From positions 45,064 to 109,063 of the IMG/VR virus record IMGVR_UViG_3300020463_000009: DNA of 64,000 nucleotides. One strand, given 5' to 3'. The DNA is from a virus. This document shows positions 33,995-59,611 of the stretch, in pieces. Within the stretch, counting starts at the first letter, position 1. Every line of letters starts with the position of its first letter. The notes below the pieces were generated by a model. It was not told where the DNA came from and ran no database searches. It saw only the letters and a program-made list of their open reading frames with translations. Both the position numbers and the translations under genes were made by a program.

Positions 33995-34204
33995 ATGACA
34001 ATTACGGTTGAAGTAAGAAAAGGTAATTTAGAAAAAGCTATGCGAGTAATGAAGAAAAAACTTGCTAAAGAAGGCTTACTAAAGACTCTAAAACAGAAAC
34101 AATACTATGAAAAACCTTCAGAAATTAAGCGTAGGAAGAAAAAAGAAGGTATCAAGAACTTCAAAAAGAAGATGAAAAAACTTGAACTTACAAGAGGTTA
34201 CTAA
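33995..34204 (+). CDS. rpsU: Ribosomal protein bS21
   Basis: A 69-residue basic protein of the bS21 family: TITVEVRKGNLEKAMRVMKKKL, then a central K-x-x-x-YYEKPSEIKRRKKKE block that matches the family's YYEKP-x-x-x-R-x-R-K motif. Cellular S21 is of similar size and binds the 30S platform beside the anti-Shine-Dalgarno end of 16S rRNA. Phage-encoded bS21 is known from marine viruses and may bias ribosomes to viral messages. A very strong GGGAGGT site precedes it. The C-terminus is lysine-rich. Confidence 0.9.
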   Translation: MTITVEVRKGNLEKAMRVMKKKLAKEGLLKTLKQKQYYEKPSEIKRRKKKEGIKNFKKKMKKLELTRGY

Positions 34205-34228
34205 TTTCCCCGCCTGTGCCTAGATGAT

Positions 34229-34236
34229 GATAAATA
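34229..34236 (+). promoter_or_regulatory. Late-promoter-like site GATAAATA before the structured RNA
   Basis: One mismatch to TATAAATA, placed a few bases before the first hairpin of the non-coding stretch. It would start a transcript at about 34242, close to the first stem. Confidence 0.4.
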
Positions 34237-34240
34237 TAGA

Positions 34241-34495
34241 TGAGCGGGCTATTCGTAAGACCTGCTGGCGTGGAGAGGCGACCAGAGCCTGTTAAATGGA
34301 TTAACGAACTGGTAGAGTTTGGTGGTTCTCTTCAAAAACCACCAACGAATTATGAGATTAAGGTGTAGCGAGAGTGAACCTTAATGGTGGATTGTTTTAG
34401 CATTTGCGCTTAGTTTCGCACCACCTGTAAAAAAACAAACTAAAGCTGCTGTGCGATTTTGGTAGTTTACGCCACAAATATTAAAACTACCACTT
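34241..34495 (+). ncRNA. Candidate structured non-coding RNA, class unknown
   Basis: Between bS21 and Hsp20 there are 381 bases with no gene, and most of it folds into successive hairpins: AGCGGG/CCTGCT near 34242-34265, CTGG/CCAG and GTTAA/TTAAC near 34264-34305, a perfect 9-base stem TTGGTGGTT/AACCACCAA (34319-34345), a perfect 8-base stem ATTAAGGT/ACCTTAAT (34357-34385), GGTGG/CCACC enclosing TGCG/CGCA (34386-34425), and a perfect 8-base stem GGTAGTTT/AAACTACC (34461-34491). Local GC is higher than in neighbouring genes. I see no tmRNA, RNase P, SRP, tRNA or group I intron core signatures. No long frame spans it. Boundaries are approximate. Confidence 0.6.
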
Positions 34496-34517
34496 GAAAT
34501 ATAGGAAATAATAACTA

Positions 34518-34525
34518 TATAAATA
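34518..34525 (+). promoter_or_regulatory. T4-type late promoter TATAAATA
   Basis: Exact match 61 bases before the Hsp20 gene and after the last hairpin of the RNA candidate. Confidence 0.75.
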
Positions 34526-34585
34526 ACTATGATACGCTCATAAGAGGTATCAAATATTAACTTTGCTTAAAATAAGGAGGTTCTA

Positions 34586-35026
34586 ATGACCAATCACAAA
34601 GCAATTCATTCAATTTTTACTGGATTAAGACCGTTCACGGTGGGGTTTGACGATATGTTCGACCATTTTGATGAGCTAACTACTCACTTACCAAATATGA
34701 CGGCTAACAACTATCCACCATATAACATAGTAAAGACTGGTTCTTTAACATATGATATAGAAGTGGCACTAGCAGGTTACGGTAAAAAAGACGTATCAGT
34801 TAATTACGAGGATAATGTCCTTAAAATTGATTCTGTAAAAGCTAAAGAAGAGAATAAAGTAGGTGTAATACATAAAGGTATTGCTAAAAGAAGTTTCTCT
34901 AAACACTTTACAATAGCAGATGATGTTGAAGTAAAAGGTGCTGAACTAAAAGATGGTCTTTTAAAAGTGTCTCTGGAAAAAATTATACCAGACCACAAAA
35001 AGGCTAAAACAATTACTATCAAGTAA
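34586..35026 (+). CDS. hsp20: Small heat-shock protein (Hsp20/IbpA-like)
   Basis: A 146-residue alpha-crystallin-type chaperone. The crystallin domain runs from about residue 46: YPPYNIVKTGSLTYDIEVALAGYGKKDVSV, then IAKRSFSKHFTIADDVEVKGAELKDGLLKVSLEK, where the G-x-L motif (GLL) is present. The N-terminal GFDDMFDHFDEL resembles IbpA. It probably stabilises unfolded phage or host proteins late in infection; the late promoter supports that. Common in marine T4-likes. An AAGGAGG ribosome site precedes it, and a terminator follows. Confidence 0.92.
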   Translation: MTNHKAIHSIFTGLRPFTVGFDDMFDHFDELTTHLPNMTANNYPPYNIVKTGSLTYDIEVALAGYGKKDVSVNYEDNVLKIDSVKAKEENKVGVIHKGIAKRSFSKHFTIADDVEVKGAELKDGLLKVSLEKIIPDHKKAKTITIK

Positions 35027-35037
35027 TAATTTAAGAG

Positions 35038-35069
35038 AGGCGTCCCAGCATTGACAAAGGGACGCCTTT
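35038..35069 (+). terminator. Hairpin terminator after Hsp20
   Basis: A perfect 9-base stem (AGGCGTCCC / GGGACGCCT) with a 12-base loop and a short T run. The following late promoter starts 5 bases later. Confidence 0.75.
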
Positions 35070-35073
35070 CGTG

Positions 35074-35081
35074 TATAAATA
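35074..35081 (+). promoter_or_regulatory. T4-type late promoter TATAAATA
   Basis: Exact match directly after the Hsp20 terminator, 82 bases before the ParB-like gene. The leader contains a small hairpin GCGAC-AAAG-GTCGC at 35137-35150, just before the start codon at 35162. Confidence 0.75.
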
Positions 35082-35162
35082 GGATTATATAAACTAAAAC
35101 AAAAAATTTTGTTGTTTGTATAAAAGAAATTGTAAGGCGACAAAGGTCGCAGAAAGTAAATT

Positions 35163-36380
35163 ATGACATTAAATATGCCACAAAACACACAAAGGCTAGA
35201 CACAGCTTTTGATATTCAACCAACTTTAAAAACTATTAACGACAATTCAATTATTGTAAATGTAAGTAATACAGATAGATTTACAGACGAGAATTTAAAA
35301 ACACAGGATAGACTTATTGTCAAAGAAGCATATCCTGAATTATATGATAGAGAAGATAAGGGATTATTTTTTCAAAGATTTGAGATTAGAGATATAGATA
35401 CATTATTTGACAATCTAAAAAACAAATACGGTAAGCAAAAAGGTAGAGCTACAACTAACCAAAAGATGGTTGGTATTAGAAACGATATTTTAGAAAATGG
35501 TTTTAAACTAAAATATAACCCTATAGCAATAGCTGAATATGCAGATGGTTCAATTAAATTTTTAACAGGTAGAACTAGGGTGGAAATCCTAAAAAAGACT
35601 TGCGATTTTAAAAATGCTATTGTAGCCGTTTATTCAGTAAAAGATAATAAAACTTTAGCAACAAATAACTTAAAGTTTAATCTAATTGATTCTCCAGTAG
35701 GTGTTGCTACAACTGGTGATGTTATTGCAGTAGGTCAAGAACTAATTGATGACGGAGATATAACAAAAAATTTAGATGAGATAAATGCTTGGGTAAATGA
35801 AGTTACCGAAGGCAGTCATTTTACAGACAATACTAAAAACATTATTGCTCAATCACTTTTAAATAACAATTCTTCAAGACCTTATATCAACTCTTGGACA
35901 CCTGAAAGGGTACACGATTGGATGATAGAACAAGGTTATAAGAAAGCTGGTGACCAATATCCTAGTAGTGGTTTATCTTCTAAAGAATCAGTTTACGTAC
36001 AAACTAAACAAGGTCAAGAACATTTAAATCAATACTTATATGTGATAGGTGCTTCTTCATCTTGGAGTAAAAATCTATCCAGAGTATCAGCAATAGCAAA
36101 CAATACACATTTTGCTGGTAAATCTATTAGAGTTATTTTACATACTTCAACATTAGATACATTAAATACTATTCAAAAGTTAGAAGAACAATATAACGAT
36201 AAGATTGAAAAACACAATTTAAATTATAATCAAGAGTTATTAAATATTGGTAACTCTTACTATACTAGAGAAATTAACGGTGAGGTTGTACTACCTATTA
36301 TTAATACAAAAGTGGTATTATATGCAACGTTACCAGTTATAGGCAAGGTACATAAACAAAATGAACTTGTCGTATTATAA
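35163..36380 (+). CDS. ParB-like domain protein, unknown role
   Basis: A 405-residue soluble protein. Residues of about 95-150 (KMVGIRNDILENGFKLKYNPIAIAEYADGSIKFLTGRTRVEILKK) look like a ParB/Srx-type domain: a strand, then a G-x-x-R box (TGRTRVEIL). The remaining two-thirds has no motif I recognise and no clear helix-turn-helix. It is expressed from a late promoter, between the chaperone and the clamp operon. A nuclease, CTPase-like or DNA-marking role are possible; none is shown. The ATG at 35163 follows AGAAAGTAAATT, a weak ribosome site. Confidence 0.7.
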   Translation: MTLNMPQNTQRLDTAFDIQPTLKTINDNSIIVNVSNTDRFTDENLKTQDRLIVKEAYPELYDREDKGLFFQRFEIRDIDTLFDNLKNKYGKQKGRATTNQKMVGIRNDILENGFKLKYNPIAIAEYADGSIKFLTGRTRVEILKKTCDFKNAIVAVYSVKDNKTLATNNLKFNLIDSPVGVATTGDVIAVGQELIDDGDITKNLDEINAWVNEVTEGSHFTDNTKNIIAQSLLNNNSSRPYINSWTPERVHDWMIEQGYKKAGDQYPSSGLSSKESVYVQTKQGQEHLNQYLYVIGASSSWSKNLSRVSAIANNTHFAGKSIRVILHTSTLDTLNTIQKLEEQYNDKIEKHNLNYNQELLNIGNSYYTREINGEVVLPIINTKVVLYATLPVIGKVHKQNELVVL

Positions 36381-59497: not shown

Positions 59498-59511
59498 TAA
59501 TCAATAAACAT

Positions 59512-59538
59512 AGGGGTAGGAACTATGTTCCTGCCCTT
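59512..59538 (+). terminator. Hairpin terminator after the 96-residue gene
   Basis: An 11-base stem (AGGGGTAGGAA / TTCCTGCCCTT, two G-U pairs) with a 5-base loop. It lacks a T run and abuts the next late promoter. Confidence 0.65.
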
Positions 59539-59545
59539 ATAAATA
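59538..59545 (+). promoter_or_regulatory. T4-type late promoter TATAAATA
   Basis: Exact match immediately after the hairpin; 66 bases before the next gene. Confidence 0.8.
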
Positions 59546-59611
59546 TATTAACAAAGTGATTGTATCAACTGGTACAAGTAGCATACCCATAAGGGTTTTT
59601 AGGAGAAAAAA

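Follow-up and report, generated by a model that had tools for sequence, protein, structure and literature searches.

The gap between the bS21 and Hsp20 genes of a T4-like pelagimyophage almost certainly encodes a conserved, covarying structured RNA, which is predicted with good confidence to be a separate late RNA gene. The reading that we prefer, with a probability of roughly 0.6, a figure that leaves its partner aside, is that this is a stand-alone, trans-acting noncoding RNA gene of pelagimyophages. Comparison at the sequence level establishes a promoter motif, covarying structure, independence from both neighbours and exchange of modules. The window (the whole 64,000 nt stretch of DNA analysed) is part of a 109-kb virus record, and the phage has Mosig and HTVC008M as relatives. 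Pelagiphages rank among the commonest ocean viruses, and the host of the window phage is thought to be the ocean's commonest bacteria (SAR11). With a covarying family, a fixed locus and swappable cassettes, one of which (module D) also occurs alone in unrelated pelagiphages, the RNA is a testable candidate for RNA-based host takeover in SAR11, and it offers RNA biology a rich alignment of natural H-type pseudoknots. In the portions of the pelagimyophage literature available, little noncoding RNA appears besides tRNAs, tmRNA and glutamine riboswitches.

The bS21-Hsp20 gap

The gene order in the window is peptidase, AAA ATPase, bS21, gap, Hsp20 and clamp genes, and the order in Mosig and HTVC008M is much alike. 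Judged by the gap region these are also the nearest isolates: HTVC008M and Pelagibacter phage Mosig EXVC030M, the latter with 83% identity across 55% of the gap. The gap, 34205-34585, is with 381 nt the longest intergenic region in the window, the next longest having 197 nt. A preliminary description had placed a gene-free, structured RNA with a GC content above that of its surroundings here, and this is borne out: there is no credible gene, the + strand holding just a 42-codon ORF; the GC content of 34205-34517 is 0.409 compared with 0.325 for the whole window; and the minimum free energy of 34205-34585 is −95.4 kcal/mol (z = −2.61), with none of 100 dinucleotide shuffles equally stable. A coding function was also rejected for the small ORFs annotated there in Mosig, two hypothetical proteins (L002:4064-4183 and L002:4196-4312) that overlap the conserved structure of the RNA and are probably spurious. 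Two other gaps in the window, 35027-35162 and 59498-59611, also fold far better than base-shuffled controls (z = −6.6 and −5.1, respectively), the first containing a terminator-like hairpin 3′ of Hsp20. The features recognised in and around the gap are:

33995..34204, + strand: bS21 gene (69 aa), upstream neighbour; Pfam Ribosomal_S21, E 1.1e-15
34208-34214/34267-34273, + strand: P1, outer stem CCCCGCC/GGCGUGG, enclosing the promoter box and P2; one C-U mismatch in the window
34229..34236, + strand: late-promoter-like box GATAAATA, ~7 nt before P2
34243..34266, + strand: P2, hairpin 34243-34248/34261-34266 with conserved loop GGCnnnUCRUAAGWCC; expected 5′ end of the transcript
34277..34313, + strand: module B, H-type pseudoknot, GGC 34277-34279/GCC 34287-34289 and ACCAG 34281-34285/CUGGU 34309-34313
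34314..34345, + strand: module C, H-type pseudoknot, S1 AGAG 34314-34317/CUCU 34328-34331 and S2 34319-34327/34337-34345
34356..34357, + strand: site without module D (~90 nt), which is present in close relatives; from the alignment with L004
34357..34385, + strand: module E, hairpin 34357-34364/34378-34385, inner AGCGAGAGUG
34386..34449, + strand: module F, outer stem 34386-34390/34421-34425, inner hairpin 34399-34401/34408-34410, pseudoknot 34412-34416/34437-34441
34450..34491, + strand: module G, terminal H-type pseudoknot, S1 UGUGCG 34450-34455/CGCCACA 34470-34476 and S2 34461-34468/34484-34491
34518..34551, + strand: Hsp20's own late promoter TATAAATA (34518-34525) and leader hairpin (34531-34551), directly downstream of the RNA
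34586..35026, + strand: Hsp20 gene (146 aa), downstream neighbour; Pfam HSP20, E 3.8e-15

All the stems named in the preliminary description (9, 8, 8 and nested 5+4 bp) are present: the 9 bp stem at 34319-34327/34337-34345, the 8 bp stems at 34357-34364/34378-34385 and 34461-34468/34484-34491, and the 5 bp stem at 34386-34390/34421-34425, which encloses the 4-bp TGCG/CGCA. Three of them are parts of pseudoknotted modules, and the element starts before these four stems and includes P1 (34208-34214/34267-34273), P2 (34243-34266) and pseudoknot B (34277-34313). The nested 4-bp stem exists in the window but in only part of the homologues; conserved instead are the inner hairpin of module F and the pseudoknot that follows it.

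Homologous loci

IMG/VR loci encoding relatives of Hsp20 (80) and bS21 (68) were collected, and 131 loci, the window and the named phages included, yielded a bS21-to-Hsp20 gap sequence, of which 69 are distinct. A scan of IMG/VR independent of the neighbours, with the motif ATAAATA-N6..20-GGCNNNTCRTAAGWCC that joins the late-promoter ATAAATA to the hairpin loop UCRUAAG, found at least 119 places. Among the 119 matches listed, 95 are flanked by both bS21 and Hsp20, 14 by bS21 only, nine by Hsp20 only and one by neither, so that 118 adjoin one or both genes; several of the single-neighbour cases lie near contig ends. Among the records searched with a slightly looser motif, G000, G001, Mosig and HTVC008M have it as a single copy, and it is absent from the Melnitz-2 and Kolga records. 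Melnitz-2 EXVC040M, an OM43 phage, has a divergent variant of the RNA, with the end pseudoknot, before Hsp20 (L379, ~2830-2960). In one clade with bS21 only, the gene after the RNA looks like a sliding clamp. In cyanophage S-RIM32 the gap between regA and hsp20 (L382, ~1810-1970) contains a late-promoter-like box, a hairpin, a CGGAACACC stretch that is also present in Melnitz-2, and a terminator-like hairpin; this element is possibly a distant cyanophage counterpart of the RNA. At one locus a glutamine riboswitch lies directly downstream of Hsp20 (L143:2536-2586, Rfam 64.6 bits).

Covariation and conserved structure

Four alignments were made. A1 (P1, P2 and C) holds 73 of 78 selected sequences, leaving out L222, the short form L259, and L279, L311 and L338, which are uncertain; L222, without either neighbour, is probably a chance match. 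A2 (P2, P3 and the end pseudoknot) holds all 49 short forms, A3 (E and F) 37 of 39 long forms, two near-duplicates being left out, and A4 all of 42 sequences. The proposed stems pair in 83.0%, 93.5% and 93.7% of cells in A1, A2 and A3, respectively, and the covariation measure is 0.390 in A1 (shuffles 0.168 ± 0.008, slid controls ≤0.145), 0.357 in A2 (shuffles 0.164, slid controls ≤0.083) and 0.282 in A3 (shuffles 0.168, slid controls ≤0.090); in A3 the numbers of pairs with a change on both sides and of further pair types do not exceed shuffles. A phylogeny-aware, R-scape-like test was also run (G statistic with average-product correction, and a null in which the substitutions inferred on each branch are reassigned to randomly chosen columns). 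The covariation that the preliminary description had named as a check is present here too: with 40 nulls and E ≤0.05 over all column pairs, the significant pairs that fall in the proposed structure are 3 of 3 in A1, 1 of 1 in A2, 2 of 10 in A3 and 3 of 5 in A4, several of the A3 pairs outside the structure involving alternative forms of E and F. Among structure pairs alone, 6, 5, 4 and 7 pairs reach 0.05 in A1 to A4, respectively.

P2 pairs in 95.2% of cells in the short forms (A2). When all pairs are considered, two of its outer pairs reach E ≤0.05 with 20 nulls, and one of the two does so with 40 nulls as well. As the sequences were chosen by the P2 motif, conservation of P2 is partly circular, that of stems outside the motif is not. 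The frequency of C[AG]TAAG is biased by the same selection: 77 of 78 forms and, in the other set, 49 of 49 contain it, where shuffles give 6.5 and 3.9, respectively. P1 is paired in 83.9% of A1 cells, with changes on both sides at six of seven pairs, and is borderline phylogenetically (best pair E 0.055 among structure pairs). In module C, S2 is paired in 93.5-94.8% of cells and four of its pairs are significant among structure pairs; S1 is paired in 59.7% of cells of the sequence-only alignment and is not significant (best E 0.117). Since neither P1 nor S1 of module C reaches E 0.05, both rest on pairing counts and variants seen by eye. The two S1 arms vary in concert, for instance as CACAG/CUGUG, AGCAG/CUGCU, GUAGAG/CUCUAU, AGUAG/CUACU and ACGCAG/CUGCGU, in a search that is biased in taking the best pseudoknot for each sequence, and some sequences gave another or none. 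Module B, which contains a small hairpin (34291-34305), has variants recognised by eye and without a formal count (ACCAG/CUGGU, GCUUG/CAAGC, CCG/CGG and UGAC/GUCA).

Module E is paired in 89.4% of cells, with both-side changes at four of six pairs. In module F the inner hairpin is paired in 100% and the pseudoknot in 99.5% of cells, with double changes from A-U to G-C in 15 of 37 and from U-A to C-G in 10 of 37 sequences. The end pseudoknot of the short forms, equivalent to module G, has S2 paired in 97.0% and S1 in 77.8% of cells. Modules C and G have a common design, a short S1, a U-rich first loop (AUUUU in G), S2 and an A-rich last loop, and loops of this composition would seem suitable for triple-helix formation.

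Promoters and transcription unit

The + strand of the window has 12 copies of the motif TATAAATA and the − strand none. Eleven of the 12 lie outside ORFs although ~95% of the window is ORF, which supports the reading of the motif as a late promoter. The promoter-like box noted earlier is present upstream of P2 (GATAAATA) but lies inside P1 and within the region first reported, rather than preceding it. Its spacing to P2 resembles that of the box before the Hsp20 leader hairpin; ATAAATA is invariant in the short forms (A2), and ATAWATA was recognised by eye in A1. The gap has both its own promoter motif and a conserved structure, as for an independent small RNA gene. The Hsp20 leader hairpin and P2 were considered as one motif, an idea given up since relatives differ in the leader loop, which is UUCG in most of the cyanophage leaders shown. 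P2-like hairpins at many late promoters were likewise rejected: of all TCRTAA sites in the window, just two both come after a late-promoter-like box and form a hairpin. In the text available of one pelagimyophage study, prediction of middle and late promoters was unsuccessful (PMC7029224), and the published pelagiphage transcriptomes in the sources available are of HTVC022P and HTVC027P, none being from a pelagimyophage infection.

P1 pairs bases that flank the promoter and so cannot form in a transcript started from it. That P1 is conserved suggests a role in read-through RNA, and the stand-alone model does not account for this stem. The region could be a 3′-UTR or read-through element of the bS21 mRNA, acting in stability, processing or autoregulation, with P1 folding after the stop codon and the late promoter secondary. 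P1 is close behind the bS21 stop (4 nt in the window), covaries in pairing counts, and bS21 is upstream in 109 of the 119 matches listed. This is nevertheless unlikely: no S21 is annotated in the 6.4-kb Melnitz-2 stretch that holds the variant, a gene of ~110 aa lies between bS21 and the RNA in HTVC008M and similar short forms, and the phylogenetic signal of P1 is borderline.

A riboswitch-like or thermometer-like leader that acts in cis on Hsp20 or the downstream clamp operon would fit the position of the RNA upstream of Hsp20 in 104 of the 119 matches listed, and manA RNAs are reported before ibpA genes in the available text of Weinberg et al. (PMC2864571). We consider it quite improbable. 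Of 145 distinct loci that contain both P2 and Hsp20, 138 have ATAWATA downstream of the RNA in the last 130 nt before Hsp20, and most of the remaining seven have TATAAGTA-like variants there; whole genes (ORFs of at least 100 aa, mostly ParB-like by eye) are inserted between the RNA and Hsp20 in 14 of the 145; and no Hsp20 match lies downstream in 14 of the 119 matches listed, some of which are at contig ends. In the short forms L146, L150 and L151, moreover, the last pseudoknot is followed by U6-U7. With a separate Hsp20 promoter, inserted genes and a U-run after the last pseudoknot, the RNA is unlikely to be a mere Hsp20 leader. Most long forms, the window included, have no U-run at this position, so that a discrete 3′ end is for them a prediction only. 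The RNA-Hsp20 interval with its insertions in 14 of 145 loci appears by eye to be a hot spot for different ParB-like genes. In the window a gene ParB-like by eye (35163-36380) is located right after Hsp20; it has no Pfam match over the cut-off and no PHROG match.

Module exchange and module D

Among 37 sequences, the types of modules E, F and G occur in 19 combinations. L004 and the window are near-identical in their shared modules, and S1 of module G is GAGUU/AACUC in L004 and UGUGCG/CGCCACA in the window. Module D, present in L004 and absent from the window, is found in 32 of 37 long forms and missing from four (the window included), one contig being too short. Additional cassettes are found in L155, L179, L199, L237 and L276: long loops that are exchangeable within the end hairpins (e.g. 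CCUUGUCGUGAUUUAUUACAGACAGAAA), and one more module behind the RNA.

Module D is a compact pseudoknotted RNA with a GGUCU/AGACC knot and a GUAAGA hairpin loop. It is paired in 77.6% of cells, with covariation of 0.244 versus 0.094; one hairpin is poorly aligned (30.0% paired), and the 100% pairing of the pseudoknot helix is partly by construction, the set having been picked by a pattern that contains its strands, whereas that pattern covers neither the outer closing pairs nor the last hairpin's outer pairs. A pattern scan found at least 120 stretches. Among the loci gathered, 172 module D places are listed; 121 have P2 in the 500 nt upstream and 51 do not. A few of the 51 are contig-edge pieces of the same locus, and others include intergenic sites in unrelated contigs. 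Stand-alone copies in unrelated pelagiphages include L374:2422-2544 (Kolga EXVC016S), L343, L272 and other loci without P2, and the siphophages Kolga and Aegir both carry the module. When 11 records were searched with a covariance model of module D, six had a match, each a single copy; the record of the window itself has none, and the exact pattern has no match in 84,980 bacterial and archaeal genomes. A tie of module D to bS21 was rejected: bS21 lies within 500 nt upstream in two of 50 listed places without P2, and these two are Kolga and Aegir, near-identical there. The stand-alone copies often lie 10-13 nt after the stop codon of a 69-aa ORF of unknown function, which ends within 15 nt upstream in 18 of the same 50.

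A trans-acting RNA and the alternatives

As a stand-alone gene, the RNA would be transcribed from its own T4-type late promoter into a predicted transcript of roughly 250 nt, from ~34243 to 34491-34500, and would act in trans. It would begin with the P2 hairpin, continue through pseudoknots B, C, F and G and end with pseudoknot G, the counterpart of which precedes a U-run in some short forms, and both folded ends would presumably protect it. Tentatively, such a stable late RNA may be a trans-acting scaffold or decoy, presenting conserved hairpin loops to a putative RNA-binding partner from the host or the phage, with the remaining modules changing as the host changes. The conserved loops are UCRUAAG in P2, YCGYAAAG in P3 of the short forms and GUAAGA in module D; apart from this loop family and the folded ends nothing hints at a mechanism, and the occurrence of such loops in P2, P3 and D could be coincidence. 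More speculatively still, and on balance doubtful, the pelagiphages may have a new modular class of RNA effectors with a fixed late promoter and 5′ hairpin, interchangeable cassettes (C/G, D, E and F) and D-like cassettes that move between unrelated phages of the same host, the RNA taking over a host protein or ribonucleoprotein late in infection.

For bS21 itself as the partner, sequestered or chaperoned by an OLE-like RNA, there is the adjacency of the genes, and, according to the available text of PMC12054373, the site at which OLE RNA binds bS21 is an anti-Shine-Dalgarno mimic that pairs with an SD-like strand. In the RNA described here, CCTCC is present in 2 of 78 and 2 of 49 forms, the level expected by chance (2.8 and 1.1 in shuffles), CCTCCT in none, and no S21 is annotated near the Melnitz-2 variant, leaving this reading very improbable. 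The put RNA binds RNA polymerase and causes antitermination. In a similar manner, P2 and P3 at the 5′ end could bind the polymerase so that late transcripts pass downstream terminators, and the short forms do carry two hairpins with related loops right at the expected transcript start; some of these forms, however, stop with a U-run after ~110-150 nt and the next gene has its own promoter box, so that little credence is given to this. Type III toxin-antitoxin RNAs are pseudoknots, and a chain of pseudoknots with fast turnover of modules is reminiscent of an anti-defence decoy or antitoxin-like RNA. This seems a very slim prospect, as no toxin-like neighbour was seen, the inserted ORFs are ParB-like by eye, and pseudoknots C and G are not sequence repeats; a check for ToxN/CptN/TenpN-like toxins found bS21 and Hsp20 as the window neighbours, and the inserted ORF of Mosig, the one inserted ORF searched, had no Pfam or PHROGs match at the cut-off. 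A genome-packaging, pRNA-like role has the late promoter in its favour and is hardly credible, with no Rfam match to phage pRNA or any other family and no terminase among the genes adjoining the gap; the ribosome- or packaging-related role first suggested has nothing beyond the neighbourhood to support it. Riboswitch, antitermination and packaging roles are without positive evidence, and OLE-like mimicry directed at bS21 was tested and is not supported. The stand-alone, trans-acting RNA is retained as the preferred reading.

Comparison with known RNA classes

In agreement with the initial impression of no recognisable class, a search of the window with Rfam 15 gave no family at the gathering threshold. 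In 20 homologous loci the same search recovered nothing but tRNAs and a single glutamine riboswitch located elsewhere, and there was no match in seven Hsp20 loci from cyanophages and Melnitz-2. Three focused scans with E up to 10 or 5 gave nothing credible, the best regional scores being ≤17.4 bits; wcaG RNA (RF01761) scored 16.4 bits in the window and 17.1 in L004 against a cut-off of 42. Group I introns, ribozymes and riboswitches were weighed by eye and dropped without a match, and ARAGORN found no tRNA and no tmRNA gene in the window. The RNA is not described in the parts available of the pelagimyophage (PMC7029224) and Melnitz (PMC9004378) papers, nor was a description found in the open-licence full-text literature as far as its text is available, although it may be in print elsewhere.

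The manA RNAs share the marine, T4-like phage and ibpA/Hsp20-upstream setting: Weinberg et al. (2010), in the text available, report them upstream of ibpA chaperone genes both in marine sequences and in T4-like cyanophages (PMC2864571); the best score of manA RNA (RF01745) in this genome is 7.5 bits, elsewhere, with a cut-off of 55.2. Melnitz and its relatives have a glutamine riboswitch and a two-piece tmRNA, as the accessible sections of PMC9004378 report, and are structured-RNA carriers of the same phage group; unlike them, the window has no tmRNA (ARAGORN) and no riboswitch (Rfam). OLE RNA, like this RNA, is structured and tied to bS21, here by gene adjacency, and has no Rfam match here. 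GOLLD and ROOL resemble it in being phage-encoded and pseudoknotted, both occurring in phages and prophages, and GOLLD, according to the portion available of PMC12286853, consists of a conserved and a variable part and becomes more abundant in the course of lysis. They are, however, >500-800 nt in length whereas this RNA has ~110-450 nt, no covariance model of theirs matches, and the window has no tRNA. The STAXI motif, in the text of PMC2864571 available, is also an array of pseudoknots, but repeats one pseudoknot, whereas here the pseudoknots differ and alternate with hairpins, with no Rfam match. Phage-encoded structured RNAs are broadly already known; the family described here, which matches none of 4227 Rfam models, is new.
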